Assembly: GCF_964204865.1 (NCBI RefSeq) | Contig: NC_135257.1 | Location: 9,570,151-9,634,150 of the forward strand | Direction of reading: 5' to 3' | DNA: 64,000 bases | Source: Styela clava | Lineage: Eukaryota > Chordata > Ascidiacea > Stolidobranchia > Styelidae | Part shown: positions 3,905-63,684 of the stretch, piece by piece | Layout of the letters: each line of letters begins with the position of its first letter | Position numbering within the stretch: the first letter of the stretch is position 1 | Translations under genes and position numbers: made by a program | Notes under the pieces: model-generated | What the model saw: the letters and a program-made list of their open reading frames with translations, nothing else | What the model was told of the DNA's origin: nothing | Database searches by the model: none

Positions 3905-7780
<3,876 letters not shown>

Positions 7781-9271: not shown

Positions 9272-9762
9272 ATGATGCTTATTAATATATGCTATGCATC
9301 AGTTGTGTAAGGCCTGATGCTCCCAGTGTTTCTATGTTATAGTCAACTTCCTGTCTAATCGAAGAATTGCGTGGCAAACAGGAAATATTGATCTTTCTGT
9401 GCCACCACAATTGAGATGCCATAATTGCTGACTGGGTTCAAAACAAAGGTGTTCTGATTTAATAGTATGTATACATTAAGCCTCGTTGACACATGGAGAA
9501 ATTTTAGCCTTTCAAAATGAATGCTGCCATTAAAATGAATTCTGCGTTGTATTGAAATAAATTTTTGTAGATGTCAAATTATTCGGATTTGCCATCCTAG
9601 CTGGATCATTAGTGAAATCGGCTATTCTGATAACAATTGAAAAAAAAAAAGGATTTTGCTCAGAATAAGATGTTGTTTGTCAAAGTCCGTTTCAATAGTT
9701 GGGAAAGCCTCTATAGAGTCTATATATCATGTTCCAGTCGTAAGGAAAAAAACGTTTGCCCC

Positions 9763-11289
9763 AAAAAAACAAAAGGTTGCATTTGATAACCATTCAGTCC
9801 TGGTTAGAGCACATTTGCACCCACGGACAATCGCACGCTCGTGAACATTTGCATTCAAAGATATCAGTACTTCAATAAAGAACATTGTGTCACACGTCCA
9901 TAAGTTTTAAATAAATTAACTGTTATGCTCGAAATATCAAAAAATGAAACAACTATTTCCTATGCCTCTTCAGCAACTGTTGATCAAGCTTTGTATGCTC
10001 TAATATTCCTGCGACGCATGAAAGAATTATGAATATATTAGCGCACTTATGATTGAAACTTATTAGGATTGTGTGCCACTTGCTGTTTTACATTCTGCAA
10101 GCGCTTTAAAACATGCTGTATTTTTTTAGATTTGTAGGATTTCATGAAAGAGGTCATCCATGTTTAAAGCAAGTCTGCCGTTTAGTTTATATTTTTCTAC
10201 AATTCACGCAAATTGTTCGTATTTTCAAAAAGTTTTACCTGCAATACTTAGACTTCATAGTATTACCAATTTTCGTCAATCGAACTTTTTTTCAAATATA
10301 TTGCTGAATTGAGAAACGATCTAAATTCGTCAGTTTCGCGACTCACAACTCATAAGGCTATCGGTATTTGTAAAAAGTTGATGTACACTATATCCAAATG
10401 CACATACTTCGGGAGCGCCGAGGTTTCATTCTCCAGTTCATATCATCTTAACACGGCGGGCACGCGCACTTCTGTCGGTGCTCCCTTGGTATGTGCATCA
10501 AGATGGCGCACAACCTGAACCCTAATCTGGTGCACATACTATGTTCAGGATGTGCGCCATATTGGTGCACATACTTCTAGAGCTTTATCGGTGCTCCCGG
10601 AGTATGGTAACTTCAACTTGTGATTTGTCGTCCTGGTTGACTCCTGGCCAACAGAAAACGAAACTAGTATATATATTCAATATTTCATTTACTGTTTTGC
10701 ATCTTTTGTAGCAAATGCTATACATAAAAAACAATTTGCGTCCATTCAACTCCATTAAAGCACAAGGACAGAAGAGCTTAAAGGGACTGTTCTTTAAAAT
10801 GAACGCAACCCTACTTAAAAGTAATAATCCTAATTCCTATCCCACATTCACCTTTGTGACAATCATCTTTACAACGAAATTCTACCACAAAGTTGAATCG
10901 TATATCCTCTCCACCAAATTGTTTAATGGAACACTGTAGCAATAGCACCTTATGAAAACTACATCAACTCCATGCGTAGGGTTACTTATTGCACACGTAA
11001 ACGCGCTGAAATTTAGGAAAGCAAAATTTAAGTCGAGCAGTCATTTGTTGTACCTAAAAATACAACCATGTGTTTACGTCACTTGTGCCAATTTCATAAT
11101 GTTATTTCATATTAGCGTAACCAACCTGCTTTCAACAAAAAAATCTGCCGCTGCCAATAAGGAGGCTTTGTGGGCGGATTCTTAACACAATCGACAAAAA
11201 TTTATATTTTTATGTTCCATTTTGGTTCTTGATTTGATTATTCTATTGTACCCGGAGTAAATGATTCAACATTTATCTAACATTTAGTC
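9763..11289 (+). repeat. Tandem segmental duplication, copy 1 (1527 bp)
   Basis: This stretch is repeated head to tail at 11290-12980. I count under ten differences by eye outside one 162-bp insertion, so the event is recent. The unit starts at an A-run followed by CAAAAGGTTGC and ends in CATTTAGTCA. It contains a relic of the 16-bp fold-back minisatellite (about 9795-9850), a member of the GTGCACCAAGATGGCGCAC fold-back family (10490-10576), and short ORFs that occur in both copies but resemble nothing I know. Confidence 0.95.
10490..10576. repeat. Fold-back repeat inside duplication copy 1
   Basis: Imperfect inverted repeat: a left arm TATGTGCATCAAGATGGCGC and a right arm reading back GCGCCATATTGGTGCACATA. 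It belongs to the same family as the elements at 45802 and 59367. The second copy of the duplication has it at about 12018-12104. Confidence 0.7.
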
Positions 11290-12980
11290 AAAAAAACAAA
11301 AGGTTGCATTTGATAACCATTCAGTCCTGGTGAGAGCACATTTGCACCCACGGACAATCGCACGCTCGTGAACATTTGCATTCAAAGATATCAGTACTTC
11401 AATAAAGAACATTGTGTCACACGTCCATAAGTTTTAAATAAATTAACTGTTATGCTCGAAATATCAAAAAATGAAACAACTATTTCCTATGCCTCTTCAG
11501 CAACTGTTGATCAAGCTTTGTATGCTCTAATATTCCTGCGACGCATGAAAGCATTATGAATATATTAGCGCACTTATGATTGAAACTTATTAGGATTGTG
11601 TGCCACTTGCTGTTTTACATTCTGCAAGCGCTTTAAATCATGCTGTATTTTTTTTAGATTTGTAGGATTCCATGAAAGAGGTCATCCATGTTTAAAGCAA
11701 GTCTGCCGTTTAGTTTATATTTTTCTACAATTCACGCAAATTGTTCGTATTTTTAAAAAGTTTTACCTGCAATACTTAGACTTCATAGTATTACCAATTT
11801 TCGTCAATCGAACTTTTTTTCAAATATATTGCTGAATTGAGAAACGATCTAAATTCGTCAGTTTCGCGACTCACAACTCATAAGGCTATCGGTATTTGTA
11901 AAAAGTTGATGTACACTATATCCAAATGCACATACTTCGGGAGCGCCGAGGTTTCATTCTCCAGTTCATATCATCTTAACACGGCGGGCACGCGCACTTC
12001 TGTCGGTGCTCCCTTGGTATGTGCATCAAGATGGCGCACAACCTGAACCCTAATCTGGTGCACATACTATGTTCAGGATGTGCGCCATATTGGTGCACAT
12101 ACTTCTAGAGCTTTATCGCATATAGGTGTCGCTGACACGATGACTTAATAGTCTTTCGCGACTCCTCGTCAATTGCGAAACATTGTGTATTTTTGATTTA
12201 TTTAAATTTATTATTATTTGTTGACAATGTTTCATGCACGACGAAATAAAATATCTGAATCTGAATCTGAATCTGAATCGGTGCTCCCGGAGTATGGTAA
12301 CTTCAACTTGTGATTTGTCGTCCTGGTTGACTCCTCGCCAACAGAAAACGAAACTAGTATATATATTCAATATTTCATTTACTGTTTTGCATCTTTTGTA
12401 GCAAATGCTATACATAAAAAACAATTTGCGTCCATTCAACTCCATTAAAGCACAAGGACAGAAGAGCTTAAAGGGACTGTTCTTTAAAATGAACGCAACC
12501 CTACTTAAAAGTAATAATCCTAATTCCTATCCCACATTCACCTTTGTGACAATCATCTTTACAACGAAATTCTACCACAAAGTTGAATCGTATATCCTCT
12601 CCACCAAATTGTTTAATGGAACACTGTAGCAATAGCACCTTATGAAAACTACATCAACTCCATGCGTAGGGTTACTTATTGCACACGTAAACGCGCTGAA
12701 ATTTAGGAAAGCAAAATTTAAGTCGAGCAGTCATTTGTTGTACCTAAAAATACAACCATGTGTTTACGTCACTTGTGCCAATTTCATAATGTTATTTCAT
12801 ATTAGCGTAACCAACCTGCTTTCAACAAAAAAATCTGCCGCTGCCAATAAGGAGGCTTTGTGGGCGGATTCTTAACACAATCGACAAAAATTTATATTTT
12901 TATGTTCCATTTTGGTTCTTGATTTGATTATTCTATTGTACCCGGAGTAAATGATTCAACATTTATCTAACATTTAGTCA
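11290..12980 (+). repeat. Tandem segmental duplication, copy 2 (1691 bp, with insertion)
   Basis: Direct repeat of 9763-11289. It is longer by one T in a T-run plus a 162-bp insertion at 12119-12280. The right end is CATTTAGTCA followed by unique sequence, and the same ten bases end copy 1, which fixes the junction at about 11290. Confidence 0.95.
12119..12280 (+). mobile_element. Retroelement tail (5'-truncated LINE or SINE) inserted in duplication copy 2
   Basis: A 162-bp block is present in copy 2 and absent from copy 1, so its ends are defined exactly. It ends in AAATAAAATAT followed by four tandem CTGAAT hexamers, the short-repeat 3' end typical of CR1/L2-type LINEs and the SINEs they mobilise. 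ATCG occurs on both sides and may be a short target duplication. It carries no coding capacity of its own. Confidence 0.75.
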
Positions 12981-13356
12981 ATTCAGATATTATGCGTGCC
13001 TAATTTTCAGTGGCGAGTGTTGAAAATTCTTCAAAAAACCTTGCTATGTATTCATGTTTTATTTAAACAGCGAAAAATAAATATACTAAAAACATGAATG
13101 TTACATGACTGCTCAAACTTCAGTATCTAATTTATAATTTCCTCCAAGTGCGATTCTTCGCTCGCAAAAAAATGGGCATTTGTATGACACTGCTATTATT
13201 GCGAATACAATTTATAACACTACTCTTGGAGTGAGACAATAACTTTCGCATACTGCAGAAGTTATTGTAGGATCGTTGGTTAGTCAAGACACGATATATT
13301 CGGCAATTCATTTTCAAATCTTGACAGAGACAAAACTTGCATTTGTTACGTAACTA

Positions 13357-13598: not shown

Positions 13599-14720
13599 GC
13601 GTATACCATTGCGGGATGTGTTCAAATGTTCCTAGGTTTTGCCTAAAAACGTTGATGGAGGGAAAGTGGAAACACAAACTACGGTAATAGTATGCAGGTG
13701 TGCAATTGTAGTTAAAAGTAGAGGAATTACACATAGAAACATGTTAAATCACCAAACCGCAACGAAGCGAAATAAGTTGACATTATATTTATATTATGAG
13801 GATTTTTAAGAAAAGGGCTGCTACATCAACTATGTTAATTATTTAATGTCCATGTTGCTGGAATTCTGATTCTATATATATATAGGCTTACCATAAATCT
13901 GAAACAAAAAACCGGGACGGTGCGATTTGGCAAACATTCGGTTGATTGCCAGTCTTTGTAATATTGAAACGTCTACCAAGCCATTGCGGGTATATACGGC
14001 TCTAAATCTCTATACTGATCATTGAATTAGAAAAAACACAAAAAAATAGTTTGTATTATTTATTTAGACCAAAAGTATTTGTTCGCAGATGGAACCCTTC
14101 TCAAAAATTCTTGTTTTGATTTTGTCATAAAACTGATAACAAGAGACATCACCATTAAATTTGCAGGTTACGAGTGCTTTTATATTTTCTTCTGGCATTC
14201 TGAACCTGCTTCCAGACCAGAAAGTTTTAACAATGGAGAAAAAATCTGTTCAACAGATGCCGATGTTCCGGCAAACAAAATCAACGAGTTTCTGCAAATT
14301 CGAAATGCTAATATTTCTGTTAGAAAAAACGTTAAACATCTCTGTCCACTTAAATTCAACCGCAAAGTAAGCCAAATTGCATTTGAACCATGCTCAGATA
14401 AATATCTCCTTATCAGTATTCGTCGAAAAGTGCATCTCTATTCAAAACCTGACTAGCTAACCGAACATATCATTTATCAATTTTGCAAACCAAACACTTT
14501 AGTCCAGTTTAAATCACCCATAATTTGTCCATATGTGGGGCCTGGGGAGCATTTTAGGCTTCATCATGCAGCTCTATATACCGCAAACATTCTTTTTAAA
14601 TACAGTTACATCGATTTCGCCAGAGCGTTCCAAGGATTCCAGAAGTACAAGTGATTGCGACGGAATTAACAGTCTTCACCCTTTTTCCTTCAAATTTAGC
14701 TTCACCTCTGACATCTACGG

Positions 14721-15169
14721 CAGGGCTTGGCAACCTTTTGTCGCTCGCGGGACAAAATTAAGGGCTGCGAGTCATTGGCGGGCCGTACATATTTTTAGAA
14801 AGCTGAAACCGAACGAATGATACTTTTTATAATAAAAATCAAGCAGTAATACATCTTTCGAATAGAATATAGATTTATTTCCTCATTGCATCGCAAAAAA
14901 TTGCATTTGAATATTTTCAGCGCCATTGAACCCTTTGCACTTCGTTTTTCTGCGTTTTGTTGCCATTTGTCTAATTATAATTAAATTATAGGCTCATTAA
15001 ACGAGTAGTTGTGAATTATATACTTGTTAGGTTATAATATAATTTAGTTTAAAAAATATAATCGTCAAAACGGCTGTTTTGTTACTATAATTTAGTGAAG
15101 CGTCACGAGCCGGATTATAATATTCTGCGGGCCGGATCCGACCCTGGAACCGTAAGTTGCCGACCCCTG
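14721..15169. mobile_element. Non-autonomous hAT (MITE), copy 1
   Basis: It begins CAGGGCTTGGCAACC and ends TTGCCGACCCCTG, imperfect terminal inverted repeats of the CAGGGGTCGGCAACC type. ATCTACGG flanks it on both sides (14713-14720 and 15170-15177), an exact 8-bp target duplication. The 449-bp body matches 28458-28920 and 56780-57223. It is inserted in the larger hAT at 13885-20677. Confidence 0.92.
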
Positions 15170-15406
15170 ATCTACGGCATTAGTATTATCTTTTTTCAAA
15201 ATTAAAATAATTTTGTTGAAGTAGGTGAGCTGGCAAAGGACAAATTTAAAGTGAAGTTCGTACGCTGGAACATTTAAGCATAAGAGTAGGACATCCTTCT
15301 TGAGAATTTGAATAACTTATCAAGCTTTCAAACAGTTCCGTAATCCTTTGCAAAGCAGGTAATAAAGGGAAAACCCGAGTGTTGCCATGCTGTAATAGCC
15401 GTTGAT

Positions 15407-15925
15407 GGTGACAGCACATTTGAACCTACGTACATTTGAACCCGTACATCTGAACCCGTAATTTGAACCCAGGACAATTGCACCTGTATACTATTGCACC
15501 TATGGACATTTGCACCTACGGACATTTGAACCCATACATTTCCACCCATGGATTTTAGCACCCGCATATAGATTGAACCCGCGGACATTTGAACCCGTGT
15601 ACGTTTGCACCCGCGTACATTTGAACCCATGTACATTTGCACCCGCGGACATTTGAACCCGTGGACGTTTGCACCCGCGTACATTTGAACCCATGTACAT
15701 TTGCACCCGCGGACATTTGAACCCATGTACATTTGAACCCACGAACATTTGCACCCGCGGACATTTGAACCCATGTACAATTGCACCCACGGACATTTGA
15801 ACCCACGTACATTTGAACCCGCGTACATTTGAACCTACATACATTTACACCCGCGTACAATTGTACCCACAGACATTTGCACCCATGAACATCTACACCC
15901 ATGGGCATTTGCATTTACGGATATA
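15407..15925 (-). repeat. Left arm of the MULE: 16-bp minisatellite
   Basis: About 30 head-to-tail 16-mers of the form ACATTTGAACCCGCGT or ACATTTGCACCCATGG, alternating GAACCC and GCACCC. The outer 180 bases are less regular and contain a block reading GGATTTTAGCACCCGCATAT that recurs in every family member in this window. The arm is the reverse complement of 18975-19483, with local differences in unit number. Confidence 0.95.
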
Positions 15926-16402
15926 TGCGTCTTTATATATACACCCTTATCCTTCCATGCTATATACTATAGTATATAGGATTGGAAGGTACACTTAGGA
16001 TTTTTTGTCCAAATGCATACGTTGCGAAAACACCATGGAATTCTCGATTATATACTCGAAGGCTTTATTACAACTATTTTCTATATATTTAAATTATATT
16101 ATATATTTATATTATACTCCGTCTGTCATTGTCATCGCAATTGTCGATATCATAAGACTCAATGGACAAAATGTTCCGCTGTAGAATGCGAGCCAAAATT
16201 GGGGAGTATGATTTGTGCTTTGAACGGTCGACGACTCTTGAAGAGCGCGAGCAAGGATTTTAATTGATGTGTTAGTTCGATCCCGCGCAAAGTTTTTCCT
16301 CGCATCAATGCCCTTTTCCCCTCGCAGACAATTCCAAACTGTTTCTTTAGGACGTTGCAGCTGCGAAGATGACAAGTCCCTTTGCGAAAATAAGTTGGAA
16401 AC

Positions 16403-17754
16403 ATGGCGCCTACATTTTCCAAGACCACAAGAGGAAACGACTTACTGATTTACAAAGGCCACGAATATTGTAAGCGAAATGATCGGGTTTCAGATGCTAC
16501 TCATTGGCGCTGCCGTCAGTTTAGGAAATTTCGATGTAAATCGACTGTTGTTACAATCGGTGAAAATGTAATAAAAGAACTAGGATATCACAGTCATTCT
16601 GGCGACAGCATTAAGGCTGAAGTTGGGATCATCCGTGCAACATTAAAAGAAGCAGCATCAACACCATCAAATACATCGACAAGATATATTTTAGGTGAAG
16701 TATTGAATAATAGATCAACAGATGTAGTAATGCGCTTGCCAGGCAAGTCGACTCTGGAGGCCAATATACGCAGAGTAAGGCGACAGAAAATTTGTTCACG
16801 TACGAATCCTACAAGTGCAAGCTTTGATATTCCGAGCGAATATTTAGATATCATTTTGCATGACACTGGCTCGGAGGATCGTCATCGGATAATGGCCATT
16901 GGAGATCGATCACTACTTGCACATCTAGATAGTGACCCATATCTTGGCGACGGTACATTTGATGTGGTGCCCGATATTTTCTTCCAGTTGTATACAATTC
17001 ACTGTAAAGTGGGCGCATCCTATCCACCATGCGTATATTTCCTATTACGAGACAAGCGACAAGAAACATACGTTCAGATGTTGGAAGCGTTGAAAATCAT
17101 TTTCCCAAATGCTAACCCCACCAAAATCATTGTTGATTTTGAAATAGCAGCTATCAATGCATTCCATGCACATTTTCCTCTGGCCGATTTTAAAGAATGT
17201 TATTTTCACCTGTCACAAGCTATTTCGAAAAGTTGGTTCTATCGGATTAAAAGAGAAGTTTGAATGTTTACCTTCTTTCAATCTGAAAATTAGAAGTTTG
17301 GCAGCTCTGGCTTTTGTTCCCATTAACGAGGTTGCCGAAGTCTTCCCCTTGCTTTGCGACACCTTTGAAGATTTGCCCGAATGCAATCAACTTTTGCAAT
17401 ATTTTGAATCTACCTACATTCGTGGACCTCAAGTGGGTTCACGTCCAAGAGAAACAAGATTTCCCCCTCGATTGTGGAACTATGCCAAAGAGATTGAAAT
17501 GGTGCCTTCGGCCCCAAGAACAACAAACGCTGTAGAAGGATTTCACAACGTCTTACAAGGAATGTTCCGATGCAAACATCCGAGTATATATATGGGGTTT
17601 GCTGAATGGCCTACGAAAAGACATTGCGGTCCACAAACTGACTGCGGCAAATGCTCATGTAGGAGTTACGGCCCACCAAAGATCAAAGTATGTACAACTT
17701 GCCGTTAGGTTGACAGTTGAGTTTTTTCATATGGAACTGAAACCGACAAGCTGA
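16403..17754 (+). pseudogene. FLYWCH-MULE transposase, frameshifted
   Basis: The open frame from ATG at 16403 runs 286 codons. Residues 15-66 look like a FLYWCH zinc finger (YKGHEY, WRC, C45, HSH). A MULE DDE domain follows, with first aspartate D183 in YLGDGTFDVV, second D245 in KIIVDFEIAA and the family motif CYFHLSQAI at 266-274. A frame change near 17225 moves the reading to NLKIRSLAALAFVPINE and then TTNAVEGFHNVLQG, which supplies the expected glutamate. A second shift near 17595, at a TATATATA run, is needed to reach GLLNGLRKDIAVHKL and the stop at 17752. With two frameshifts the gene is dead, although the conserved residues remain. It would have cut and re-inserted the surrounding element. 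Confidence 0.88.
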
Positions 17755-18974
17755 GGTATCTCCACTCAATAGCTCAAATGCAGTCTATTTGATTTTGATC
17801 GTGATATCGTAAAATTTCGTTTATCGTCATTACTTTGATTTGTTGTTTAACTATTGTATCATAATTGATAAATTCCTATTTTGTAAAACGTCCATAGCTA
17901 CTCTATCTCAAAATTGATCGCCCATTCGACACAAATTTGTGAGTGATAACTTTATTGAGATATTAAAATAAATGTAATCCGTAACCTATGACGTCGTTTG
18001 TAAATTGCAATATCATATTTAACAGACCCTATATGCTGAATATGTTCGATTCACTCTAAATAGTGTAAACAGCAAAAAACATTTTTGGCCACGATAATGA
18101 TTTTAAAACTTCTTCACTTTCGAATATTCAACATATTTACATGACTTACGATTTCTATGTATAGTTTTGTTCTGACATTCTAATGAAACAATACTTCAAT
18201 AAAACTGGCATTTGGCTATGAACATGTTGTTACAAAAATGGCATAGTTTCATTATCTTAATTTCATATTTTCTTAGAAACGAAGAATCTGTGAGTTTATT
18301 TATTTATATACAGACAATAGTATTCAATTTATAGATTGATTTTAGGAAAAATGTCAGAACCTGATTTGAGACAACACTCATTTTCAACAGTAAAGCGTGG
18401 TCGTGTATGCATACATATAACAATTTTGTAAACATGCTAGCAAGAAAACATGAAGTGGCCACAGAGCTCCCAAATCTCATGCTGGGCGGGATATCATAGT
18501 AGGCGTTTTCGGTGCAATAATTTCAGAACAAATTTATAGGAGTTGACCACTAAAAATATTACTGTAAAGCTAGTTTTAGTAAGACCCTCATTTAAGACTT
18601 CATTGGTCTGTGAGATATTTGTTCCGTATTAGCCCTGGTTTCAGGTATTTCAACGAAATACCGCTTTCTAGGTCATCGTCTGTTTTGGAGATCGCGGCTA
18701 ACGAATGAAATAAGGTTTTACAAATGTCAATGTAAAAAAACAGCAAAAGAAAAAAGACTTTGGCAGAACAATGTTGTTTATATCGTTAAGAGACGTTTAT
18801 CCCTCGAACTACAATGACACTCAAAAATGCTTGCTTCGTAGAAGCGGATAAATGCATATACACCAAAACTAACTACAAGTGAAACAGTGTTGAAATTTAG
18901 AATATTGAGCTTGCGCCTGTAACATGAAAATTATTTGCGACTGGAAATTGCCGTTGGGGCAAACATTTTTTGTG
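17755..18974. other. Noncoding interior of the MULE
   Basis: About 1.2 kb of AT-rich sequence between the transposase pseudogene and the right arm. I see no gene and no recognisable repeat. Confidence 0.6.
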
Positions 18975-19483
18975 AAAATGTACGTGTGTTCAAATGTACG
19001 CGGGTTCAAATTAAGCGAGTTCAAATATAATATACGTTGGTTCAAATATACCCGGGTTCAAATGTCCGTGGGTTCAAATGTACGCGGGTTCAAATATACG
19101 TGGGTTCAAATGTCTGTGGGTGGAAATATACATGGGTTCAAATGTCCGCGGGTGCAAATGTTCGTGGGTTCAAATGTCCGCGGGTGCAAATGTACATGGG
19201 TTCAAATGTACGCGGGTGCAAACGTACACGGGTTCAAATGTCCGCGGGTGCAAATGTACATGGGTTCAAATGTACGCGGGTGCAAACGTACACGGGTTCA
19301 AATGTCCGCGGGTTCAATCTATATGCGGGTGCTAAAATCCATGGGTGGAAATGTATGGGTTCAAATGTCCGTAGGTGCAAATGTCCATAGGTGCAATAGT
19401 ATACAGGTGCAATTGTCCTGGGTTCAAATTACGGGTTCAGATGTACGGGTTCAAATGTACGCGGGTTCAAAGATAATGGAACC
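18975..19483 (+). repeat. Right arm of the MULE: 16-bp minisatellite, inverted
   Basis: Tandem 16-mers such as GTTCAAATGTACGCGG and GTGCAAATGTCCGCGG, the reverse complement of the left arm. It includes the diagnostic core TATATGCGGGTGCTAAAATC near 19320 and the terminal ATAATGGAACC. The + strand is stop-free in three frames over much of the array. Confidence 0.95.
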
Positions 19484-20677
19484 GCCGTTGATACTATCAA
19501 CAAAATCGCAGAATGATTTCTCCTCTGTTACTCGGACAGTGTATATGTAATAATATTTATACATTTTGACAACAACACAAACAGGCAAAGTATCTACGAC
19601 ATGTTGAAAATGGCATCGCAGTGCACAGTTGAACTACATGGTATGCACAATCTATACCGGTTATATTTCTTTTAGTTTGAAAAAAGCATTATTTGTTTTT
19701 CGTCTTTTTACGCCTCCAAAGTTGATGTTGCAATTATCCGCACAGAATCCAACAACTTTTCCGAGAAAAGAGAGCAAGTATTCAGTAAAAGTTTTGGCGG
19801 TTTCCCTGGGTAAAGATTTGAATTCTAATAGTTTTATCTTCACACCAACATCAGGTAAAAAAATAACGAACCACAACTGGAACAAGCTTTAAATTCTTTC
19901 TGTTTGATGCATCGAAGGTTACTGATACGAAACTGGTTTAAAGTAAATCATCATTAGGTTCAGAGGAGAACAGCGGAGCAATTCAATTAAAAATCACCGA
20001 CTCTCATTTATTTCTGGCTAAACGTGCAAAATCAGCGAATCCGCTTATCAGACAGCGGACATCAGAAATTCTAACTGTGTATATTTACAAGTTAATGCAA
20101 ATTTAGGCTAAAAAAATCAAAATTAATTCAGAGGTGCAGTCAAAACTTTGTGTGATAAGCAAATGTCGGCTGCCAACGACAAACAATCATCCGAATTTGT
20201 TATCGCAAAAAATTGGTCAGTCGAGTCGATGCCTCAATTAATGTTTTGTGCTTCCTGCTTTGGATAAGATCGTTGACATCAGAACGACCATCTTATTCTT
20301 GACTAATAGAAAAACAGATCTGCAATGCGTACAGTGACCTTTCCTCCTTCAGTTTGCGCAAAATAAGGAAAATCTCCTTTCAACTCATTAGAAAATTTGT
20401 ACTTTTTCTTATGGCATTTCGACAACTTAACGGCATTGTAGTTAACGCCAGAAAACGCATTAAAACATATACCGATTGTGACATAACAATAGAGCAATTT
20501 TTTACTCTCTGAATTAGCGAAGTGTGTCGCAAAACAGTGGTAAATGGGCTGCCACCGTTAAAAAATTGTAACAATAAGGAATATGAATTTTTCACCCATG
20601 ACAGCCGTGCTGACAAACCGGGACATTTGAGTCGACCGGCCGGGACAGCTCGTCAAAACCGGGACGTATGGTAAGCC

Positions 20678-27289: not shown

Positions 27290-28457
27290 GCCTCATTAAT
27301 ATAACAAATCACCACAGTATTGATAGAAACATTATAGGTACCAGGTATCAACACCTAAATACAGAAATATTTAGTTATATTGTTATACAGTCGGACAGTA
27401 TGTGTGTGTGTGTGTGAAATAATTCATTAATTTTAGGTGAAGTGAACACATACTATATTCTGTATGTTTTAAACCTTACTAATAAACTCATTATTTATTA
27501 TAGTTACTGTATGCTGGTAATAGTGTATAACTGTGTGGGAATCGAGGATACCACAATGCAGTAAGCTGGTACAGTACTGGGCAAAGTGAAAGGTTCTATT
27601 GTATATTATATTTTGCTAAATAAAAAAAAACATCATTAGCAAGCACAATGCCAAAAACATAATTTCTTGAATATTTTTAAAAATTAGGTCAAAAAATTCA
27701 CCACAACATGCCATATCCAGACATCACAATATAGAGATATAGCTGACTGAGCTGGGATAGATATTTACCAGTAAATATTAAATAAAGAATTATAGACATA
27801 AAAGTAAACAATCATATACGCCAATAACATCAGAATATTTTTATCAGGGGCATTATTTCCCTGTTATTCCTAGTTTTATTTGTTGATTTTGTTGTACAAA
27901 TTAGTAGTTTTTTTTAATTTTTTTTTTTAATGATGATAAAAAACATAAATAAAATATTATCAAAAAATATGACCAACAGTACATTAATAATATGATATAC
28001 ATGGTTATTATAAATCCAAGGAAAAACTCGTCACCGTCATTATCCTTTTTTTTATGATTTCCATAGGTCACCATCATTTATATGATTACAATAGTAGTAT
28101 TTTTAGATAAAGCATGTATTAACAAGTTTTTCCAATTAACATTTATCTACCTATTACGATATACACATACACCTATATATACATTTGGATACATACTTCT
28201 ATATATTATATAGATAACTGGCTTTAGACAGAGTTACACAATAAATTTAGCTCTCTTGCAAAATTAGGAAATTTCGTAAGTTGTTCAATTTTATTTCCAC
28301 ATTTCGAAGTATTGTTACTCCTCATCGAGTTGACTATTTTATCATTTGCTTTTCTTGCCTAGCGTCTTGCAAAGTAATTTTTTTCAATTTCATGAATTCT
28401 ATGATAACTTTATAATACTCACGAGTTTGTAGACTACCGTATGGCCTATGCTCTACA
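27290..28457. other. Intergenic, upstream of BTBD1/2
   Basis: AT-rich with homopolymer runs and a short (TG)n tract at about 27401-27415. It probably includes 5'UTR or leader-intron sequence of BTBD1/2. No clear promoter motif was found near the start codon. Confidence 0.45.
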
Positions 28458-28920
28458 CCGGGGGTCGGCAACCTTTTGTCGCTCGTGGGCCGAAATTAAA
28501 GGTTGCAAGTCATTGGCGGGTCGCACATATTTTTGGAAAGTTAAAAATCGAATGGATGACCGATGAATCACATTTTATCACACAGATCAGAAGTAAAATT
28601 TTAAGCAGTGCGCGAAGACTGACCATTTTACTGTTCTAATATTTTTTGCGCCATTAAACCATCTGCACTTAGCATCAACTTTTCTGCGTTTTGTTGCCAT
28701 TTGTCTAAATTATAATTAAATTATAGGCTCATGAAACGAGTAATTGTGAATTATATAGACTACTTTTTAGGTTATAATATAATTTAGTAATAAAAGAATT
28801 TTTGTGTAAAGAATATAATCGACAAAACAGCTATAATTTGTTACTATAATTCAGTGAAGCGTCATGGGCCGGATTATATTCCTCCGCGGGCCGGATCCGG
28901 CCCGCAGGTTGCCGACCTCT
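28458..28920. mobile_element. Non-autonomous hAT (MITE), copy 2
   Basis: Terminal inverted repeats GGGGTCGGCAACC and GGTTGCCGACCTC bound a 463-bp body. GCTCTACA flanks it exactly at 28450-28457 and 28921-28928, an 8-bp hAT-type target duplication. Subterminal sequence CGCGGGCCGGATCCGGCCCG is shared with copies 1 and 3. Confidence 0.95.
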
Positions 28921-28928
28921 GCTCTACA

Positions 28929-30190
28929 CTATTACAGTATTATTTAGACTACAGATATACCATAATATAAGCCTAATTTTGTAATCGTTATCCTATTTTG
29001 AACTCTCTAAAATTTAAGACAGTTAGCCTATTGCGTGTGGGCTGAGCGAGAGCCGAGAGTGGGCTGGGGTAACATTGGTCTATTGCAGTATTGTTGTGGT
29101 TATCACTATCATCGCATATATCAGTACCGTATATATTCCTACTGATATAGACTAATATATTGCCGACACAGTGATAGGAATCGCATCGGGCAGTGGGGGC
29201 AACGGTCCCATTATGGACAGTGCAATTTTACTAGCGGACTAAGGACAATCAGTTACATTTAATGTTTCGCTGACCCCTATCTTAACTTCGTAAAAATTCT
29301 ATGTAGGCCTATAATGGCATACCGGTACCTGTAATTGACACTCGACCATCACAAATCTCTTTCCCTTTTTCACTAGATGGCGCTTGTAAACTGTGTCGGT
29401 GTCGGGGTGTCACACAGCCTCTACCAGCCTAGCCGCGGATCACGCAGAACCGCCGTAGCCATGCAGGCGATGTTGATCGAAAATGGCGGCCATTTTCCAT
29501 TGTTGCGCAACTTGGGTATATATGGGCTTTGGTGTCACATATTGGAAACTTTCATTTTATCAAATGCTCAAACAAATGTCAATATAAATTTTTTGATATC
29601 TTCAATTATGAAAACAAACTACAAAAAAACGAGTCCATGTTATAATCATGCTTGAAAATCTTACGCTACTGTTGAATGCGTAATGACATCGAGAACAAGA
29701 AAGTCGTGGAAATATCCTATAGTGATTTATTCTTGACAACATTGTATATTTATCGTGTATACGGTAAACCTCAATGCTTGGCAAGCTAATATGACTCCTC
29801 GCGCTCCAACAATGTGAGGAGTTGCAATAATATTGAGTGAAGGACAGTGACTTGCAGCCCAGGGAAGCTAAGGGAAAGCTCTGTTTAATGGATCGATGTG
29901 CGGTAGTTTGTTGACTTTGTAATACATCCATGTATTTGCGTCACTACCAAAATCAATATGTATTACCCGGACCAGACACTGGGAAGGGGATGTAGATACA
30001 ACTGACATGACGCTCTGAATAGGTATGATAAATAGAACAAACACGTAGATTATGTTATTAAAAAAACACCCCCCTCCAAAAAAGGGTTCAGAACCGATGC
30101 AATACGTGGTATCAATGTATTCGAGATAGATTTTTTTTAAATGTATCCTCATCTACGAACTCACTGAATGGACCCGGTGCTCACTGAAGC
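28929..30190. other. Intergenic, between BTBD1/2 and the desaturase 3' end
   Basis: No gene is supported. A G/C-richer island at 29330-29520 looks promoter-like (separate entry). The remainder is AT-rich, with only short, unrecognised ORFs. Confidence 0.45.
29330..29520. promoter_or_regulatory. Candidate promoter island with paired YY1-like sites
   Basis: A locally G/C- and CpG-rich block. AAAATGGCGGCCATTTT (29480-29496) has perfect 7-bp arms and places two opposed AANATGGC cores, the YY1 consensus, face to face. TTGCGCAAC lies 10 bases on and CTAGATGGCGC at about 29375. It could drive BTBD1/2 (minus strand, 2.1 kb away) through a leader exon, or an unannotated transcript. Confidence 0.3.
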
Positions 30191-44300: not shown

Positions 44301-47300
44301 ATCGTGTATACGAGAATTGTAATGTCACGTGTATTATCCAAAATTGTCAGCCAAACAAAATTTCGTGATTCGAGGAACCGGTAGAAGTTTTATATAATGT
44401 TTACAACTCAAAGTGCTATTGAATTATATATATTGAATAAATATATTCAATGAATTGTGGTATGCTAAAACTACATGACAAGCCATACCTAGTTTGGACT
44501 ATTTTTTTTTCAGCTAGGTACCATCAGCCATGATAGCCTCCCTCGATAGGGCAGACTGCATTCCACATTAAAAATTTCCAATTGCTATTTATCACATGGT
44601 CTCGTTTTTCAATTTCAGATTTGATGATTACCATTCGCTTTGAGTGAGACTCTAAATATCTTCATTTTTGTTTGAATGAAATTTCTTTCCAAAATTTACC
44701 CAGTGAAACCATATGATCTTGTGGAGTTTAACTGCAAGCATGTCAGCAAAACTAACTTTAATGCACTAATGAAATCTATTTTATTTTAGAGAAAGAACTC
44801 GTCACCATGCCACTGAGTACAGGAATTATTCTTCCGGGTGTGACACGTAACAGTCTTATCGAACTCGCGAGTGACTGGGGTGAGTTCAAAGTAACTGAAA
44901 GAAGGTTCAACATGGGTGATGTGAAGAAAGCTCTCAAAGAAAACAGGGTGAGACCTTTTTAATTTAATATTGTGGAAATTTTTTGAAACGAAATGGCATA
45001 GTTTTCCAGTAATAACCCTTTGTACAGCCTGATTAAAGGGGGCGTCGACGTATCCCACTTAGCATCAAATTTAATGTTCACAATATAATGTTTAGTTACG
45101 GTCCATGTGAACAGTTTTTCCATAAGCTAGAAGCTGTGGCCATTTTTTAAATTTATTTTATTTGGAACAATAAAGCACAACATGATTGTTACAATACCTA
45201 TCAGCCCCTATGCCAATATGCTAATGTAGCTTCATATTGATTCCGTAACCCTCGGGATTCAAGTATACCTAATATCAGAAGGTCGCTAGAGGTGCCCGGT
45301 ATTATTTTGTTTGCGCTATTTTCCGAAATTAAAGTCTATGACTACTAACGTAACTTACTCCCGTTAATTTTAGCATAATGAGGCTAATTTTCTAACTAGT
45401 TCTTTAGAGAAACCCGTTTTCGGCCTGTGCGTTTACATATAATTTTACTTACTGAATTGAATATGTTTGGTTACAAATATTTACGCCTTTGCAAGGATTC
45501 GATGAACCATTCACAGCTTGGAATGATAATATAAAAACCTCCACTAGACTAGTCGAACATGTTTCCTTTTTTACAGAAGTTTTCATTTTTATATTACAGT
45601 TGATAGAAATGTTTGGCGCTGGTACAGCTTGCGTAGTTTGTCCAATAAATCGTATTTTATATATGGATGAAGAATTACTTATTCCTACAATGGACAGCGG
45701 TGCAGAATTATCAAAACGATTTTTAAACGTTCTTACCGATATTCAGGTAACTGGAATATTAATGAAATTGATATAGTTTCCTTATATTGCAAAAAAAAAA
45801 CGAAGTTTGTGCACCAAGATGGCGCACAACCTGAACATAGTATGTGTACCAGGTTAGGCTTATCAGGTTGAGTGCCATCTTGGTGCACATACTTCTGGAG
45901 CGCCAAAAATCTTCCGCAGCAACAGTATGCGAAGACCCCCCTTGTACTACGAAACAATTGTTCCGAGAATAGAATGTTGAAATTCTAAAGATGTATAGAA
46001 TTCCCAGTGTTGGGAATAGCTCGTTTTGTTTCTTATATAATCGAACAATTGGAAATGCGATATTCGGATGACTGGTGAAAATTAGGTCATCCACCGTTCG
46101 ACGAATTGTTTGATTGTGTTGGTTGAAAGTCTAAATTTAATTCCAACGTTGTTACACTCTGTGGGGGGCTTCTATTAGTCTTTGCAGGTTCTAGGTATAT
46201 AGCTCCATAGAAGGATATTGAAGTTGAGACGTTAAATAGTTAGAATAACATTCATAGTTTATATCGGTACCTAAAACCTATTTTCACTACAAAAGGTTTA
46301 TCTTTTTCGATAATACCCAGGCGCACACTTGACGTACACACTCTGAGCATTGTCAAGTTGTGTCGCTAAAATGGATTGCAAATGAGTTTAAGTGTGGACT
46401 GATTCTATATAATTGATTCTCCTCGTTAGGAAGCGTGACTCTTATCCGCGATCGGCATCTTAACAACGCCTCCATTTTGTAGACCAATCAGGATGCAAAA
46501 TAAATACAAAATGTTTATATTTTTCGATAATACCCAGGAGCACACTTGACGTTCACACTCTGTGAATTGTCAAGCTGTGTCGCTAAAAATACGATTGCGA
46601 AAGAGTTTAGCGAGCGGTAGTCTGATTCTATATCATTGATTCTTCTCGTTAAGGGCGTGACTCTATCAGCGATCGGCATCTTAACAACGCCTCCATTTTG
46701 TAGGCCAATCAGGATAAAGACAAAAAAATGAAACATTGTCTGCGTTGCGCATTATGCTGATGCTATGATGTTTTATTCATTTAACCCAATCTGAAAAATC
46801 AATATATACTGATATTTGCATATGCTGCGCCAAAGCGCGTGGATTTATTATTTCATGTACTGACTTAACTTATTTTATGACCAAATAAACAAGCCGATAA
46901 GCCGATTTTAATTATATGGAACACTTTTTACAATTACCATGGCATGGAATAGGTAATATTATATATACTCCAAATTCTTATCGCGTAACTTAGTTTACAG
47001 TAACTCGTGTCATATAACGATTTATAAATCAGACTTCCATTTCGTCTTAGATTAGACTCATTTCTACCCATTTTATTTTTATGACTTGTGAAAAAAATGG
47101 TTCAATATTGTAACAGTTGGATTGGTTGTTTTTTCAAAGACCCAATAATATTGCTAAAAGCAACCGTTTCACCATAAATAATTCAGTACTTGCATTTTAG
47201 AAACGTAGGATACGTTTTATTGGAATTGATCAGACGACAATCTTTATTACCAGCCCGGATAAATTGTACATCTTGCAAATTAAAATATAATCATAGTCAC

Positions 47301-56604: not shown

Positions 56605-56735
56605 TAAAATTCATTTTGCACCCAGGATATGTGCACCTGTATACTTATACACGCACCAATAGACAATCACACCCGCAGATTTTATCACCCAGATACAGAT
56701 TGCATCCGCAGATTTCAGCAACCAGGTTACACCAT
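56605..56735. repeat. Degenerate relic of the 16-bp fold-back minisatellite
   Basis: Spaced motifs TTTTGCACCCAGGATATGTG, CACCCGCAGATTTTATCACC and AGATACAGATTGCATCCGCA match the family core (GGATTTTAGCACCCGCATAT, AGATTGAACCCGC) with many substitutions. Confidence 0.6.
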
Positions 56736-56779
56736 CCTAATGTTAGAAATAAAAACGAACTCACTGCAAACACGTACGC

Positions 56780-57223
56780 CAGGGGTCGGCAACCTTTTGT
56801 CGCTCGCGGGCCAAAATAAGGGTTGCAAGTCATTGGCGGGCCGCACATATTTTTAGAAAGTTCAAAACCCAACGGATGATTCTTTTTATAATAAAAATGA
56901 AGCAGTAATACATCTCTCGAATAGAATATAGATTTATTACCTCATTGCATCGCATTTTCGGCGCCATTGAACCCTTTGCACTTAGCATCAACTTTTCTGC
57001 GTTTTGTTGCCCTTTGTCTAATTATAATTAAATTATAGGCTCATTAAACGAGTAATTGTGAATTTCATACTTGTTAGATCATAATATAATTTAGTCTACA
57101 CGCGTCTCACAATAAATTGTGTAACGTGAAAATATAATCGTTAAAACAGCTGTTTTGTGACTATAATTCAGTGAACCGCCGCGGGCCGGATTATGTTACT
57201 CCGCGGGCCGGACCAGACCCCTG
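56780..57223. mobile_element. Non-autonomous hAT (MITE), copy 3
   Basis: It starts CAGGGGTCGGCAACC and matches copies 1 and 2 through the body. The right end is shortened to CCAGACCCCTG, lacking the GGTTGCCG segment. Flanks ACGTACGC (56772-56779) and CCGTACGC (57224-57231) match at 7 of 8 bases, an aged target duplication. Confidence 0.88.
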
Positions 57224-57600
57224 CCGTACGCGATTAATTTAGATCTTCATGATTAATTTCGATCAAAAGAAAACTCGAAACAGGCGAGAAATAAAACGCA
57301 TATACGGGCACCATTATGGCTCAATACAACTTGCTTCACATAAATCCTACATTTGCCCTGTCGGGATCCTTCCTCGCTTTTTATTTTCTCCACCGTTCGG
57401 CATTAATGTTAAAACCTCGCTCTCAACCTGCCAACAACTTTTATAGCACAGCTTCTTTACCAAACGTATTTCGTTCGATGACCAAACCAACGATCGAAAT
57501 CGATGAAATAAAATTTGTATGTTTGTGGACACATATTTTACTCTAGCAGTGATATTTAACAACAACATTCTATGCAACACAACAGACAATAATAATATTG

Positions 57601-57780: not shown

Positions 57781-58803
<1,023 letters not shown>

Positions 58804-59366: not shown

Positions 59367-59458
59367 GAAGTATGTGCACCAAGATGGCGCACAACCTGAA
59401 CATAGTTTGTGTACCAGGTTAGGGTTCAGGTTGTGCGCCATCTTGGTGCACATACTTC
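59367..59458. repeat. Fold-back element with perfect 35-bp arms
   Basis: Arms at 59367-59401 and 59424-59458 are exact reverse complements, each containing GTGCACCAAGATGGCGCAC. The loop is 22 bases (TGTGTACCAGGTTAGG). Related copies: 45802-45895, 10490-10576 and its duplicate at 12018. Confidence 0.93.
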
Positions 59459-60885
59459 GCGAGCGCTCAAAATACAGTCATTCATGTTCACTGATATTCC
59501 TGGCTACAAAGTATTGGGAATATGGAAAACATATTATACTAAGATTTATGGTTGCAGTAAGTAACTATGATTTTCCTACACTCGAAACAAAGTCAATGTG
59601 TCCACCTGCATGAATTGAAATTCCACTGCAAGAGGCCATAAGTTGTTTATGTGTTATGTACCTTTTAGTGACAATTCCAGTCTGAATAGATCACAACCAT
59701 TATACTAGTACTCAGTGATACTTAAACGAAATGAATGTTGAGACACTAAACAAAATATCGCAATCAGTAGGCAGCCATGATTCAGTTATATTCAGTAATC
59801 ATCATTTGATTACACTTGGTGGGCCGAAAAGAAAGGACAGGAAAGCTATTGAAAAATAATGTACCAAGAAGTTTAATTAAAATAACTCAATCTATTTGTC
59901 TTTGAAACATTGATGTATATATAAACAATGTTAAGGTTTTGAGCATCGAAACAGCTAGTCATGGAATAAATATCTTCCCATTGATTATATTGCTTCAAAT
60001 GCCTTATCTTATAGCTATGTTTACTAAATACAGTAATAAGGAGGAAATGGGTTCAAGATGGTATGGAATATCCATACTTAAAAACATCCACAAACTATCA
60101 GCATTAAAAACTGGAGTAAGTATCACAGTATAACAAATTTGGTGCACGCAACGTCAGTATAAATACATCGACAACACTGTAATAGATTGCAAGGGAAGCA
60201 CTTTAATCGGGAATTATTTATTTTAACAAGAAAGTTCATCTGGCACACAAACATTTTCAGTGATTCTGGCAGAATTAAGCAATCTAAACTAGCTATAGAA
60301 TATTGTGCTAACTGATATTCAAAGTACATGTGAAAACAGTCTAAACTATATCTACAAGTACTTTCAATAATTTAAAGTTTTGATATAGTCTGCCAACTTC
60401 ACTTGTTGTACAATTTTTATATAAAAAGTCCTAGTGGGAAAATAAACACTACAAACTGTTCTGCAATGCCAATTCGAAATATACACGACAGTTTGAAGTA
60501 ACGATATAATGTCTTTTAATCACATGAAAAAGTGACGGTTTAATTTGACACGCCCCTTTCTTATGGCCTTGAATTTCTTTCGGCGATTGGCTATCCATTA
60601 CCTACACCAAAACCGCCCACGCGGTCAAAACTGCTAACTTGCATTAATTGCACATGCCCCTATGTTGTAATAAATTCCTTCTTATCATATTGCGGCAAAC
60701 CTGGATTCCAGGGCTAAACTATCAGTCGGTAACGCTTTTACCACCAATGCAGTTAAGTTAACTCTTCAACTGAACTTGCGGGTCAGACTGGTCCTAAATC
60801 ATTTAATCGTTCGTATTTCAACATTCAGACATTCAAACACACATTCAGCTTTCACCAATATAGGTTTAAACATTTTCAAATACCT
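59459..60885. other. Intergenic AT-rich stretch
   Basis: No gene or transposon recognised. Short ORFs at 59939-60133 and 60123-60329 have no family resemblance. Confidence 0.45.
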
Positions 60886-61299: not shown

Positions 61300-62053
61300 T
61301 AAGTTCTACTCATGTGTTATCTCCCGAGATAGCAACTGATGTCGTTCCTCGCGTTCTTGCCCACAGATACTCTTCGAGTTTCATTTCGCTATGAAAAGGA
61401 TGACGTGCCGGCTGTATCACTGTGCGAATTAATCATTCACGTTGTGCAACTGTGATAACAACAAAAACGACATGTGAATATTTAGGAAATGCTTGCAGAT
61501 AACATTATCTACCGAGGCTTTTCATTTTTCGCAACAGTACCCGACATTTCGAATCTACTCATCGTCGTAGTTACTCGCAGACGATACTATTATGTAACAT
61601 TTTGAATCAAACATGTTGCAAACCAGACACTCTTTATTTTTTGACCGAATGATGCGAAGCCCAGACACCGCCACTAACTCTTTGCGATGTATAGCTATAA
61701 GACGCATGGATACTGTGAGTTTTTAGTTGTAATTGTTTCCCAGTTGTCGCGACTGTTCTGTTAAACAGACTGACCAGTGACCATATACTATACTTGAGTT
61801 ATATTATCCCGAATTCAACCTCGTACGTGTGACTCCACCGTGTAGCTCGAACGTTCCTACAAGTCCGGTGAACCGACCAGCATAATTCAATGCCACTGAG
61901 CGCACGTGTACAAACACGACGTGAGCATATTTTCTAACAGCGGGCGGATCGGAACGCCGATTTTCCCTATTCAAATGCGTCTTACACACAGTCACTTACG
62001 GACTGTTTTTTCCCATCCTTGTCGCCATTTTCATGTTTACTTTTGTTATATTT
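61300..62053. other. Intergenic, no feature recognised
   Basis: No gene or repeat could be supported before the fold-back cluster begins. Confidence 0.45.
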
Positions 62054-62240
62054 GGTTCCATTACATTTGAACCTACGTACATTTGAACTCACGACGATTG
62101 CATCTGCATACTATTGCACCTACAGAATTTTTTTTTGTTTTACGGATATTTGAACCTATACTAACCTAACCCGCATATAGATTGAACCCGCGGATATACA
62201 CATGGGTTCAAATGTACTTGGTTTCAAATGTACGGTCACC
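62054..62240. mobile_element. Short non-autonomous fold-back MULE, copy B (187 bp)
   Basis: It begins GGTTCCATTACATTTGAACC and ends CAAATGTACGGTCACC, the same two termini as the 4.1-kb element in the opposite orientation. GTTATATTT flanks it exactly at 62045-62053 and 62241-62249, a 9-bp target duplication. No coding sequence. Confidence 0.93.
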
Positions 62241-62359
62241 GTTATATTTACATTCAAATACTTTAAAAACAAACACCATGGCATGCCTTTTTGAAAATTT
62301 TTGATAACAACACTACAGTTCTGTCACAGTTGACAAACGGTAAAAGAATACGTTATCAC

Positions 62360-62766
62360 GGTGACAGCACATTTGAACCTTTGAACTTAAATTTGAACCC
62401 ATACATTTACACCCGTAAATTGTACCCAAGACATTTGAACCTCCATATGTTTGCACCCACCGACATCTGCACCTTCGGACATTTGAACCCATACATTTCC
62501 ACCCATGGATTTTAGCATCCGCATATAGATTGAACCCGTGGACATTTGAACCCATGTACATTTGAACCCACGAACATTTGAACCCGCGTACATTTGAACC
62601 CATGTGTATATCCGCGGGTTCAATCTATATTCGGGTGCTAAAACCCATGGGTTAGGGTTGGTATGGGTTCAAATATCCGTAAAACAAAAAAATTCCATAC
62701 GTGCAATTGTCGTGGGTTCAAATGTACGTGGGTCCAAATGTACATGGGTTCAAAAGTAATGGAACC
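62360..62766. mobile_element. Non-autonomous fold-back MULE, copy C (407 bp)
   Basis: Ends GGTGACAGCACATTTGAACC and CAAAAGTAATGGAACC correspond to the left and right termini of 15407-19483. The interior is a palindromic array of the 16-bp units with the core GGATTTTAGCATCCGCATAT and its inverse. The flanking 9-mers do not match, so it may have been rearranged with copy B. Confidence 0.85.
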
Positions 62767-63516
62767 AATAAATTCATTTTACCATGCTATGTCGTTTACT
62801 TTCTCTTGCTTATGGCTGTCCCTATTGCTATGTAACAATGAAGGTGGCCACTACTCTCTGCAGTTTATTTATTTGATTAACCGTATTAGTATTCATTTAC
62901 GGCTTAACCGAGTTTTTAGTATTTAGTAGGAAAATCAAGCAGAAATGAGGAATAGGAATTGACGTTTCGCCTTTATTCTTCAGGTCTTACAAACTTCGAA
63001 AGGCATAAAGTACACATTAACGATCACAAAATTGAGTTCTATTTGGAGGCGGCAATTTTGTTTTAGTGTGTAAGTGCGCCGTCGCCGCCGAGTTTTTTCC
63101 CTGATAATTTTGCGCCACACGAACTAGAAGTTTAGGAACCGCTGATGTAGTGTATAACGCTCAAATATTAAACTGTGTCTTTACTAAAAAAAAACTATGC
63201 AATATTGTTTTGATAATTTATTCACCAACTCTTTTGGTTGGGTTAATAAAATTTTGATCACACGTCTGAAAGAGGTATAATATATTACTTGTAGGTAAAA
63301 CTTACAATATATGACAATTACTTATGGATGCTCGAGAACCGTATTGGAGGGCTCGCAGGTTTGACACCCCCGCAAACGAGCTCGTATAAGACCTAATGTA
63401 AAAGCTAAGTGATGATTAAAAAAAAAACGAAGCATCAAAACATCCTAGAAAACCAATGCAGAGGTGCACAAGTAGCAGCTTATTGCTCGCGTCATTATTT
63501 TTGATTTGTGAAAAAT
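62767..63516. other. Spacer between fold-back elements
   Basis: No gene. The stretch GAACTAGAAGTTTAGGAACC followed by GCTG near 63121-63144 could be an eroded hAT terminus, but this is too short to call. Confidence 0.4.
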
Positions 63517-63684
63517 GAAACATTACATTTGAACCCGTAATTTGAACTCACGACTATTGCACCTATGGGATTTTACTGATATTTGAACCCATACTAACCC
63601 TAACTCATAGATTTTAGCACCCTCATATAGATTGAACCCGCGGATATACGGGTGCAAATGTATGGGTTCAAATGTACGGTCACC
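63517..63684. mobile_element. Non-autonomous fold-back MULE, copy D (about 168 bp)
   Basis: CATTACATTTGAACCCG at the left and CAAATGTACGGTCACC at the right match copy B. The core TAGATTTTAGCACCCTCAT and AGATTGAACCCGCGG are present. The left tip is mutated and the flanks share only AAAAA, so no secure target duplication. Confidence 0.8.

Follow-up and report, generated by a model that had tools for sequence, protein, structure and literature searches.

E1, a fold-back-like FLYWCH-MULE transposon with tandem-repeat arms and unlike tips in Styela clava

In a 64-kb stretch of DNA from the ascidian Styela clava (the whole stretch is hereafter called the window), we characterized a 4,077-bp element, E1 (15407-19483, plus strand), in which a transposase gene lies between two inverted arms of short tandem repeats. 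E1 looks complete and is very probably a cut-and-paste DNA transposon of the Mutator superfamily, of the animal FLYWCH-bearing Mutator-like element (MULE) kind to which Phantom, Muta and Tm1 belong, combining the hallmarks of a MULE (the domain with its D, D and E residues) with those of a Tm1-like fold-back element (tandem-repeat arms, asymmetric tips). As far as could be checked, it represents a new family of fold-back-like FLYWCH-MULEs, the plan of which is already known in non-insect animals. All counts of copies, tips and duplications given below refer to the window.

Anatomy of E1

The boundaries of E1 are marked by an exact 9-bp target site duplication, GCCGTTGAT, at 15398-15406 on the left and 19484-19492 on the right, in agreement with the original prediction of a 4077-bp unit carrying such a duplication outside both ends. 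The sequence GCCGTTGAT occurs only twice in the window when both strands are counted, each time abutting one end of E1, and an exact 9-bp direct repeat at the spacing of E1 was found at just one of 59,899 tested positions, which is 15398 itself.

The two arms are ~0.45-0.5 kb each, mutually inverted, and made of a ~16-bp tandem repeat with a unit of approximately TACATTTG(A/C)ACCCRYG. Tandem Repeats Finder reported a period of 16 for both, with 29.8 copies at 15416-15885 (left arm, plus strand; ~30 units, ACATTTG(A/C)ACCCRYG-like, in the unit table) and 31.2 copies at 18976-19471 (right arm, minus strand; ~31 units of the left-arm repeat in inverted orientation). With the units anchored on ACC, which fixes the ACC columns, the spacing came to exactly 16 in 25 of 30 cases for the left arm and 22 of 28 for the right one. 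Aligned without gaps, the arms are 92% complementary over 439 nt, and 418 of 452 columns are identical when gaps are allowed, so that the arms are indeed the reverse-complementary arrays of roughly 0.5 kb that had been proposed. Directly inside the left arm lies an AT-rich hairpin or imperfect palindrome (15951-15989, plus strand; DNA fold z-score -3.78), and none of 200 shuffles folded equally well.

The inversion does not extend to the tips. Aligning the arms, as the original prediction had suggested, shows them to be inverted but leaves the tips out, since the alignable inverted sequence begins only at base 13; symmetric tips of the terminal inverted repeats (TIRs) are thereby ruled out for E1. 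Each end closes with ~8 bp of its own, GGTGACAG on the left (15407-15414, plus strand, upstream of the transposase gene and outside the inverted alignment) and GGTTCCAT on the right (19476-19483, minus strand, in the inward direction), and both start with GGT. We call these tips A1 and A2, names borrowed from the nomenclature of Tm1 (PMC3169594).

The transposase gene is read from the plus strand in three frames. The first (16403-17263) contains a FLYWCH zinc finger (PF04500, residues 5-65, E 2.3e-11, above the curated cut-off) and a MULE domain (PF10551, residues 183-272, E 1.2e-9, scoring 38.9 bits where the cut-off is 27.6). FLYWCH stands N-terminal to the MULE domain, the order expected of FLYWCH-MULE/Phantom members, although the finger is absent from some of Phantom (PMC6446971). 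The first two presumed catalytic D residues (codons 16949 and 17135) also lie in this frame. The protein appears to run on in the second frame (within 17157-17708), which joins the first at ~17.23 kb and carries the presumed catalytic E in the motif TTNAVEG (codon 17535), and the third (17596-17754), presumably the C-terminus, follows a second frame break at ~17.59 kb. In the read-through protein the presumed triad would be D183, D244 and E378, with spacings of 61 and 134. No family scored above the Pfam cut-off in the second and third frames, and their assignment to the E1 transposase is therefore a judgement from the sequence. A sequence search of PDB (E up to 1) returned a single weak match, a FLYWCH domain (E 0.006). 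The original prediction spoke of a FLYWCH-MULE transposase relic; both Pfam domains are present and "relic" is fair given the two frame breaks, although no in-frame stop interrupts any of the three segments. Activity cannot be argued from a copy with two such breaks, and the gene of this one has probably ceased to yield a working transposase, unless the breaks are sequencing errors.

Short relatives, arm history and rival readings

Near the end of the window sit three short non-autonomous relatives, M1-M3, with tips and repeat units in common with E1. M1 (62054-62240, minus strand; 187 bp) has A2 (GGTTCCAT) on its left and A1 (GGTGACCG) on its right and is flanked by an exact 9-bp duplication of its own, GTTATATTT (62045-62053 and 62241-62249). 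M2 (62360-62766, plus strand; 407 bp) has A1 (GGTGACAG) left and A2 (GGTTCCAT) right. In M3 (63516-63684, minus strand; ~169 bp) the left tip, presumed to be A2, has decayed, and A1 (GGTGACCG) stands at the right. M1 and M3 consist mostly of a single arm with a short inverted end to close it, their best self-inverted matches being 26/30 and 22/25 columns, respectively. That M1 combines E1-type tips with its own exact duplication bears out the earlier proposal that arms and transposase form one mobile unit. Both E1 and M1 have an exact 9-bp duplication beside their ends, within the 8-11 bp of MULE target site duplications beside the TIRs.

The association of tips and repeats holds across the four copies. 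The A1 tip adjoins the repeat in 4/4 copies and an intact A2 tip does so in 3/4, so that three of the four keep an intact pair of tips, A1 at one end and A2 at the other. By comparison, the bare A1 word GGTGAC(A/C) is found 10 times in the window, 4 times beside the repeat and 6 times without it, and the A2 word GGTTCCAT has 4, of which 3 are beside the repeat and 1 is not. The arm core ATTTG(A/C)ACCC (≤1 mismatch) matches at 48 sites on the plus strand and 40 on the minus strand, and 77 of these 88 fall in E1 or M1-M3; in twenty first-order Markov sequences, one strand had between 1 and 9 matches per sequence. A probable decayed arm remnant lies at 56614-56715 (plus strand), where identity to arm segments is 67-73% (repeat families D4 and D13).

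M2 appears to have a composite history. Its A1 half shows 85.5% identity to the E1 left arm, and its A2 half is 83.0% identical to M3 over 141 columns, compared with 76.4% to E1 and to M1 over 165 columns each. A T-rich stretch is common to the A2 half of M2 and M1, and by eye none was seen in E1. Because the A2 half is closer to M3 than to E1 or M1, shares the T-rich stretch with M1, and M2 lacks a duplication, these comparisons suggest that M2 is a recombinant.

Several points weigh against our interpretation of E1. First, the 9-bp duplication is present in only two of the four copies (E1 and M1); a search for 8-10-bp duplications (≤1 mismatch, ends shifted by ≤6 bases) was positive for E1 and M1 and found none at M2 and M3. 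Second, the chance control for the duplication of M1 is weaker than that of E1, since 5 of 63,699 positions carry an exact 9-mer pair at the M1 spacing, namely M1 itself, three within the right arm of E1 and one elsewhere. Third, the transposase has two frame breaks, and single-sequence structure predictions were of unusably low quality (mean predicted local distance difference test, pLDDT, 31.1 and 32.5), which leaves the DDE fold a presumed one. Lastly, the proposed clade placement of E1 is by domain content and anatomy only, not by a tree.

The identity between the arms of E1 is uneven. Over left-arm bases 23-371 the arms differ by 1 substitution and one 16-bp unit indel, and the longest exact stretch common to both is 235 bp, whereas bases 372-464 contain 15 substitutions. 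Splitting the alignment at base 320, a position picked after inspecting the data, gives differing columns of 3/294 in the outer part and 15/142 in the inner part (Fisher p 9e-6). Arms that are near-identical over ~350 bp and then abruptly divergent suggest arm-to-arm gene conversion, and we prefer conversion of one arm from the other over age alone because identity drops stepwise; a parent copy with inner arms already unlike would also explain the step. A different account, which we regard as possible but doubtful, is that the arms are near-identical because the insertion is very recent, and that the element is intact, its frame breaks being errors of sequencing or assembly. The exact target duplication, the lone substitution across bases 23-371 and the frame segments free of in-frame stops are all compatible with it, but the inner arm parts differ at 15/142 columns, and uniform recency predicts no identity step unless the inner arms of the parent were already unlike. 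The mosaic arm identity of E1 makes it a good case for testing conversion as a mode of fold-back arm evolution.

The original prediction also called E1 FB/NOF-like. The FB/NOF elements of Drosophila combine 9-bp duplications and a MULE-type gene with fold-back arms made of short tandem repeats, and their arm units differ from those of E1. The likeness in plan, with fold-back short-tandem-repeat arms in both, stands as description, but the closest published matches, in those parts of the literature that were compared, are Tm1 and Muta1/Muta5. We consider it improbable that E1 is a true member of the FB/NOF lineage by descent and not merely in structure. The general plan is alike, and FB-like plans are discussed alongside Tm1 (PMC3169594); on the other side, E1 comes nearest to Tm1 and Muta in anatomy and domains, the compared parts of the literature contain no statement of FLYWCH in NOF, and fold-back elements are not necessarily kin, because the arms of such elements house different transposase classes (PMC3169594).

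Finally, the notion that a MULE gene was inserted by chance in an inverted satellite array, with arms that are not its termini, takes some color from the minisatellite-like arms and from the 16-bp units found elsewhere in the window, but is very unlikely and was rejected, because M1-M3 carry E1-type tips (one of them decayed) and M1 its own exact 9-bp duplication, while an exact duplication stands directly outside both arms of E1 and the remote units lie mostly within those short elements, in numbers exceeding the Markov controls.

Proposed working of E1 and its surroundings

These features may be combined into a model of how an element of this kind would move. The FLYWCH finger would bind the repeated ATTTG(A/C)ACCC core many times, so that the transposase would gather along each arm; the DDE domain would then cut at the GGT- tips, one A1 end and one A2 end being paired in the complex, and insertion would occur with a 9-bp stagger. 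Short elements such as M1-M3 would be mobilized in trans, and the arms would change in step through unit slippage and arm-to-arm gene conversion. Multiple binding of the transposase to the arms, which the original prediction had put forward, is plausible by analogy with Galileo (PMC3688188). Being compact (187, 407 and ~169 bp), the relatives are natural small substrates for working out the arm units and tips that a MULE transposase requires.

The tips may have a meaning of their own. Unlike tips on one repeat-built type of arm occur both here and in nematode Tm1, and we tentatively suggest that they go back to an old functional polarity in animal FLYWCH-MULEs, whereby the transposase assembles on the shared arm repeats yet pairs only A1 with A2. 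The arms would then provide binding and the tips handedness, and arm-to-arm conversion would keep the arms alike while ending before the tips. This is a speculative proposal, and we would not be surprised to see it fail.

Apart from E1 and its relatives, the window contains other repeats. Three related ~0.45-kb repeats (14713-15177, 28451-28929 and 56772-57231), the first of them ~220 bp upstream of E1, have termini like CAGGGGTCGGCAACC...CCCCTG and are flanked by 8-bp duplications (ATCTACGG on both sides, CTCTACAC on both sides, and a third matching at 7/8 bases); they resemble non-autonomous hAT elements. A tandem duplication at 9762-12981 has a unit of ~1.53 kb, copies 99.3-99.9% identical and ~158 extra bases in the second copy, and either arose recently or reflects the assembly or haplotypes. 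A dispersed repeat around ATGGCGCACAACCTGAAC recurs at 45802-45908, 59367-59472, 10489-10582 and 12017-12110, 84-93% identical and in both orientations, and a local direct duplication of ~210 bp (46288-46494 and 46505-46715) is 87% identical. Two genes stand out for an animal as single open reading frames without introns: CYFIP (3932-7780; 1,282 aa) and GAPDH (57781-58788; 335 aa). The two genes by themselves mark the DNA as animal. An Rfam scan of the whole window at gathering thresholds gave no matches.

Comparison with known elements

Searches for relatives of E1 were made in sequence collections with few or no animal genomes. There, the arm pattern had no match in viral or prokaryote contigs, and the protein pattern had 2 matches in viral contigs, neither of which was confirmed. 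Searching the E1 protein against phages by tblastn (E limit 0.01) gave no match, and a DDE-motif pattern picked out 3 viral and 13 prokaryote loci, among which tblastn found no relative (best E 0.035). A literature search, which was not sequence-based and supports no claim for Repbase, found no published description of the E1 family. The comparisons that follow draw on parts of the cited papers.

Two systems resemble E1 in the build of their ends and differ in their genes or repeats. The TIRs of Galileo are long and internally repetitive and contain several sites for its transposase, whose THAP domain binds the repeats; Galileo thus offers a model for the working of the arms; unlike E1, it encodes a P-element transposase with this THAP domain and belongs to another superfamily (PMC3688188). 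Tetris of Drosophila virilis is likewise a fold-back element with tandem repeats in its TIRs and 8-10-bp duplications, but its repeats are ~220 bp long and no transposase gene was found in it (PMC4079207).

Closer parallels are found among the MULEs. Rehavkus has a 9-bp duplication and minisatellite sequence, as E1 does, with a TIR of 26-400 bp, but it carries a PHD finger where E1 has FLYWCH (PMC6446971); E1 being a Rehavkus element was rejected, as no PHD family was among the Pfam matches of the three transposase frames. The same survey puts Phantom and Muta in one group, with hosts among Platyhelminthes, Crustacea, Arthropoda and Tunicata. Phantom elements share with E1 their animal hosts, FLYWCH in some members and 8-10-bp duplications, and have TIRs of 18-613 bp or none, with minisatellite in aphid members (PMC6446971). 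In a 2026 survey of arthropod MULEs, TIR lengths span 13-1193 bp, and the long ones are suggested to provide several binding sites (PMC13359780).

Among the MULEs of Aedes aegypti, Muta1 and Muta5 have 12- and 15-bp tandem repeats in long TIRs and 8-9-bp duplications, and FLYWCH forms the N-terminus in 13/14 Aedes families, with 9-15-bp subterminal tandem repeats in 10/12 long-TIR families (PMC5225508). The triad of Muta1 (D214, D283, E419) has a spacing similar to that of E1, and the many non-autonomous derivatives of Muta1 and Muta5 recall the short relatives of E1. The TIRs of Muta1 and Muta5 are 145 and 151 bp, respectively, compared with ~450-500 bp in E1, and Muta1 is unlike E1 in having a palindromic terminal motif and in its transposition in yeast (PMC5225508).

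The nearest plan is that of Tm1 (Tm1-A, Tm1-ML) of Meloidogyne root-knot nematodes, which has a FLYWCH and MULE transposase, arms of ~14-bp tandem repeats, 7-bp motifs A1 and A2 that are unlike at the two tips, and derivatives resembling miniature inverted-repeat transposable elements (MITEs) (PMC3169594). Its duplications are mostly 9 bp and fall within 8-10 bp in 45/53 complete elements. E1 agrees with Tm1 in the two domains, the short-tandem-repeat arms, the unlike tips, the 9-bp duplications, the short MITE-like derivatives and the unequal repeat numbers of the two arms (PMC3169594). It differs in its 16-bp unit of other sequence, in its tips, and in having the first 286 codons open, compared with a Tm1-A transcript of 7 exons (PMC3169594). 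Neither strand of E1 matches the printed Tm1 repeat unit (motif C) at ≤3 mismatches, the Tm1 tip motifs A1 and A2 are absent from the E1 tips, and the purine-rich motif of Tm1 matches E1 once (≤2 mismatches, minus strand); E1 being Tm1 itself was rejected on the absence of the repeat unit and tips.

From its apparently non-insect host, the original prediction had drawn convergence or an old, undescribed clade. This conclusion is not supported: a non-insect host is no sign of either, because the plan, down to the asymmetric tips, is already published for Tm1 of Meloidogyne, and Phantom is recorded in several animal phyla. What E1 adds to the known systems is that the combination of tandem-repeat arms and unlike tips also exists outside root-knot nematodes.

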